Assembly (NCBI GenBank): GCA_029011315.1
Contig: JAQXLA010000005.1
Span: 1-64,000 of the forward strand
Source: Desulfovibrionaceae bacterium
GTDB taxonomy: Bacteria; Desulfobacterota; Desulfovibrionia; Desulfovibrionales; Desulfovibrionaceae
Direction: 5' to 3'
DNA: 64,000 nt
The notes beneath the pieces were generated by a model. That model saw only the letters and a program-made list of their open reading frames with translations, was not told where the DNA came from and made no database searches. Of this stretch, positions 1-212 are shown one piece after another; the stretch's first letter is position 1, and each line of letters begins with the position of its first letter. A program made the translations under genes and the position numbers.

Positions 1-212
1 CGGCATCCCTGATCCGGCACTGAAATAGCAGAAGTGGGCAGGGCCGTCATACGGAGTTTGATTTCGTCGTTTTTATCCCTGCCAAATGCAAGAAAAGGGA
101 CTCCGATCGGAGTCCCTTTGCTTGCATTTGGCAGGGATCAACACGACGAATTCAAACTCCGTATGACGGCCCTGCCCTCTTCTGCTATTTCAGTGCCGGA
201 TCAGGGATGCCG
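1..212. repeat. 212-bp near-perfect palindrome at the queC 3' end
   Basis: Bases 1-106 are the reverse complement of 107-212 with only five mismatches (positions 35, 62, 71, 74 and 93) and no spacer; the axis lies between 106 and 107. The right arm holds the last codons of queC and its terminator. The left arm therefore carries the same last eight codons and stop on the plus strand (2-28). All five differences are outside that coding segment and put A or T in the left arm. The palindrome may continue left of the window. It is either a true inverted duplication of a queC tail or a fold-back assembly chimera nucleated at the terminator hairpin. Confidence 0.9.
93..119. terminator. queC transcription terminator hairpin
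   Basis: An 11-bp stem (94-104 with 109-119) closes a GATC tetraloop. The outer three pairs are A-T, so in the leftward direction the stem ends in a short run of U. It lies about 65 bases after the queC stop codon and forms the exact centre of the large palindrome. Confidence 0.65.

Follow-up and report, generated by a model that had tools for sequence, protein, structure and literature searches.

queC and the palindrome at the left edge

The window, i.e. the whole 64,000-nucleotide stretch analysed here, carries queC near its left edge; the gene encodes a 7-cyano-7-deazaguanine synthase (157.4 bits against TIGR00364, cut-off 150.3) and is read towards the left edge (Table 1). The genome also encodes DsrA above the family cut-off, a match that makes its host probably a sulfite- or sulfate-reducing bacterium, perhaps one belonging to the Desulfovibrio group. 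The queC gene is 64% identical to that of a Selenomonadaceae MAG (L060), while queC in the three other species of the genus is different, with only ~31% identity to the window gene; these comparisons make a gene replacement via transfer from a Firmicute probable.

Between queC and the edge lies an inverted repeat whose arms, 106 nt each (1-106 and 107-212), abut with a spacer of 0 nt and are 95% complementary. The exceptions are five mismatched pairs (35/178, 62/151, 71/142, 74/139 and 93/120), and in 5/5 the left-arm base is A or T. Both arms encode the end of QueC, GIPDPALK followed by a stop. An earlier note, made from the letters alone, had described a spacer-free palindrome of 212 bp with five mismatches in 106 positions, A or T in the left arm at every one of them, and the last eight QueC residues plus stop on both strands; each of these observations was reproduced. 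Folded as RNA, window 1-212 reaches an MFE of -198 kcal/mol with z = -31 against shuffles, and thus the palindrome is not due to chance; the next longest perfect stems in the window (loops up to 8 nt) have 13-14 pairs. Its DNA has no match among 58 relatives.

The first base of the window is also the first base of C5, a draft contig of 187,344 bp in an assembly of 26 contigs and 1,485,434 bases. The palindrome thus sits where a contig ends: its left arm reaches the edge, and C5 has nothing further left. In a search of its own genome, the left arm has no second matching place, and queC yields one match only, with no copy in separate unique flanks. The duplication of the whole gene that the earlier note had entertained is accordingly rejected.

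Table 1. Features near the left end of the window (positions are those of the window).
Feature	Position	Strand	Basis
Fold-back copy of window 127-212, very probably an artefact at the contig edge	1..86	.	contradicted by contig C24
Genuine 40-nt palindrome, likely a shared terminator hairpin and the fold-back site	87..126	.	perfect in C24
3' flank of queC, genuine	127..184	-	127-151 confirmed by C24 bases 1-25
queC, 7-cyano-7-deazaguanine synthase, 230 aa	185..877	-	ORF; TIGR00364

Contig C24, a shared hairpin and a type II-A CRISPR-Cas locus

If C5 stops at the left arm, what lies next to queC in the genome? A second contig, C24 (6,275 bp), offers an independent view. Its bases 1-65 equal window 87-151 in reverse complement, with 64/65 bases identical; the single difference coincides with the mismatch at window position 93, and here C24 agrees with the right arm. 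Bases 1-45 of C24, facing window 107-151, fit the right arm at every position and do not match the left arm. Beyond C24 base 65 (window 86/87) the two sequences part at once, with 23/86 bases agreeing in an ungapped comparison. Their divergence begins at the outer base of a perfect palindrome of 40 nt: C24 bases 26-65, equal to window 87-126, are their own reverse complement (TGCAAGCAAAGGGACTCCGATCGGAGTCCCTTTGCTTGCA), and window position 93 has A where the C24 palindrome has C. The corresponding hairpin (~ -35 kcal/mol) has no loop, and the axis of the 212-bp palindrome sits on a natural inverted repeat able to self-prime.

Outward from the hairpin, C24 carries a candidate tracrRNA (minus strand), cas9 (1361 aa), cas1, cas2, csn2, a leader and CRISPR repeats. 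The proteins match their families at 809.1 bits (Cas9, TIGR01865), 278.6 bits (type II Cas1, TIGR03639), 68.3 bits (Cas2, TIGR01573) and 125.3 bits (Csn2, TIGR01866), and the presence of Csn2 assigns the locus to type II-A. All the components of this type are found on C24: cas9, cas1, cas2, csn2, the tracrRNA anti-repeat and CRISPR repeats. The anti-repeat lies between cas9 and the hairpin and forms a duplex of -38.1 kcal/mol with the CRISPR repeat; a promoter-like site, TTGACA-18-TATTCT, lies directly upstream of the candidate tracrRNA, and the last stem of this RNA is the 40-nt hairpin itself.

The complete locus (cas9, cas1, cas2, csn2 and candidate tracrRNA) spans positions 184-6000 of L004 (C24), with the far end of the contig in L006. 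A related Cas9 (34% identity) occurs in only 1/198 other genomes sampled from the family, a rarity that suggests horizontal transfer of the locus, and none of 14 queC loci examined in other genomes (flanks of a few kb) has cas9 beside queC. At the far end of C24 (L006, 1182-1275) the order is leader-repeat-spacer X-repeat; on another contig, C6 (L012, 1-470), spacer X (AAAAGATGCAGTTATGGTGATGATAAAGTT) sits inside an array, with at least 4 spacers on its leader side. Either C24 was misassembled across the repeats at this end, or it reflects a variant among the cells that has lost the leader-side spacers.

The tracrRNA is directed towards queC and queC towards the tracrRNA, leaving the 40-nt hairpin between two convergent transcripts. 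From its position and fold, the hairpin probably ends both, although a scan for T-run terminators left it unflagged. The real order is likely queC, the shared hairpin and, in the opposite orientation, the tracrRNA, followed by cas9; going by C24, the CRISPR-Cas9 locus is the true neighbour on the left side of the window. The earlier description, of convergent queC tails around a queC terminator, is better replaced by that of a single queC which converges on a tracrRNA and shares with it the hairpin that lies between them.

A very probable fold-back at the hairpin

How could the end of queC come to face its own copy? The palindrome is very probably a fold-back produced in vitro or during assembly at the contig end and seeded by the genuine 40-nt hairpin, and hence no real feature of the genome. 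A strand ending in or crossing the hairpin would snap back, presumably during library making or sequencing; with the 3' end annealed to the 5' side of the same strand, extension would use that strand as its template and yield a read of queC tail, hairpin and, reversed, queC tail once more. One or more such reads would then have been incorporated as the last ~86-106 bases of C5, leaving C5 and C24 unjoined.

Several findings support this account: the position at the end of a contig, the overlap with C24 and the point where it stops, the perfect hairpin, the single queC and the clean state of the other 51 contig ends. A fold-back primed at the hairpin predicts that C24 leaves the window at the outer hairpin base, where it does. 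The false arm is contradicted by an independent sequence from the same genome, as C24 runs into tracrRNA and cas9 instead. Against a fold-back count the high mismatch rate for a consensus, the doubtful far end of C24 and the much shorter arms of the published library artefacts. The earlier note had offered a duplication and a fold-back, with a slight preference for the former; the second half of that alternative gains from C24, the single queC and the edge of the 40-nt palindrome, while the whole-gene duplication loses, because a unique flank other than queC, with tracrRNA and cas9, is found on C24.

The mismatches, which the earlier note took as a mild argument against a simple fold-back, do not speak against one and look like read errors. 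In the reading direction, from queC across the axis, the substitutions are G>T, C>A, C>A, T>A and T>A: transversions in 5/5 cases, with 0 transitions. With n=5 this is a weak test (P = 0.13 if changes are uniform, 0.01 if 60% are transitions), as is the tendency to copy a neighbouring base (4/5, P = 0.13). Three of the five (G>T, C>A, C>A) belong to the substitution types commonest in Illumina reads: in one study of MiSeq read ends, C>A made up 58-61% of the substitutions of C and G>T 40-45% of those of G, and error rates climb towards read ends (PMC4381044). An Illumina origin of the reads is an assumption, with which the zero indels in 106 bases are in line. The only left-arm mismatch covered by C24, at position 93, is contradicted there, and overall the five changes fit read errors, mostly C>A, G>T or neighbour copies, better than divergence.

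A rate of 5/106 is nevertheless high for a consensus. A fold-back made by the assembly graph would be free of mismatches, and the consensus must therefore come from one or a few reads that contained errors. A purely graph-made origin (a de Bruijn loop through the palindrome) is disfavoured for the same reason, and also because the overlaps between contig ends are of unequal length (65, 85, 94 and 95). Nor is folding back a habit of the assembly as a whole, an idea rejected by a survey of the first and last 500 bases of all 26 contigs: the palindrome occurs at 1/52 ends, and arms > 21 nt are absent from the other 51.

Comparable artefacts are known. Illumina libraries contain hairpin-primed palindromic reads in which only one of the two arms is true (Star et al. 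2014, PMC3946424); there, as here, a reverse-complement copy of a strand end is added past a natural hairpin, and one arm fits the genome while the false one carries erroneous bases. Those reads come mainly from historic or ancient DNA and have arms of 11 bp on average, in contrast to the 106 nt, uninterrupted and built into a contig, seen here. Inverted chimeras are also the main rearrangement of multiple displacement amplification (MDA), in which a displaced 3' end primes again on its own molecule (Lasken and Stockwell 2007, PMC1855051). The inverted sequence is shared with the present case; however, most MDA chimeras have intervening deletions, whereas none is found at the axis of this palindrome, as expected of a hairpin without a loop, and this genome (estimated 100% complete) bears no sign of an MDA origin.

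A possible inverted duplication in vivo and the reliability of C24

Could the palindrome exist in some cells after all? A minority might carry a true inverted duplication of the queC tail, or of more, formed in vivo at the 40-nt hairpin through DNA degradation and hairpin capping, with cas9 in that place in the majority; this is improbable. A mixed population would also place the right arm on both C5 and C24, and such events have a precedent: in E. coli lacking SbcCD and RecA, large inverted duplications form in vivo at a 246-bp interrupted palindrome (Darmon et al. 2010, PMC3315005), centred, like the one considered here, on a palindrome and arising there via a hairpin-capped end. The E. coli events involve large chromosome regions; here the copy is only 106 nt long, lies where a contig ends and is contradicted by another contig. 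A recent duplication should not differ from its source, and an ancient one should show transitions and sit in unique flanking sequence; instead, the left arm halts at the contig edge, window position 93 is contradicted by C24, a second queC is missing, and both the transversions and the edge position would stay unexplained. If true, a minority duplication would mean that in those cells queC no longer has the type II-A CRISPR-Cas locus as its neighbour.

That two convergent queC tails are a fixed part of the genome is very unlikely. The sequence as assembled says so, and the five mismatches can be read as divergence, yet the genome has one queC, and C24 links the same right arm to the tracrRNA/cas9 locus; since C24 bases 1-45 fit the right arm and not the left, C24 is no neighbour of a second, left-arm copy. 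Hardly credible is a chimeric C24 beside a correct C5: the far end of C24 and the CRISPR array on C6 fit in no simple way, but that doubtful end is 6 kb off and within repeats, and at the queC end the hairpin leads into a coherent tracrRNA of which it is the last stem, which is unexpected of a random chimera.

Taken as a fold-back, the palindrome has little biological importance. It illustrates how a perfect hairpin of natural origin can give rise to a fold-back where a contig ends and so conceal the neighbour; in this case queC was cut off from a complete type II-A CRISPR-Cas locus. A palindrome that stops exactly where its contig does should be compared with other contig ends before a duplication is called. 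Near an end of contig C8 (L038, 266-301, ~200 bases in), where there is no fold-back, lies a perfect 36-nt palindrome that has no loop and resembles the queC/tracrRNA hairpin in its build.
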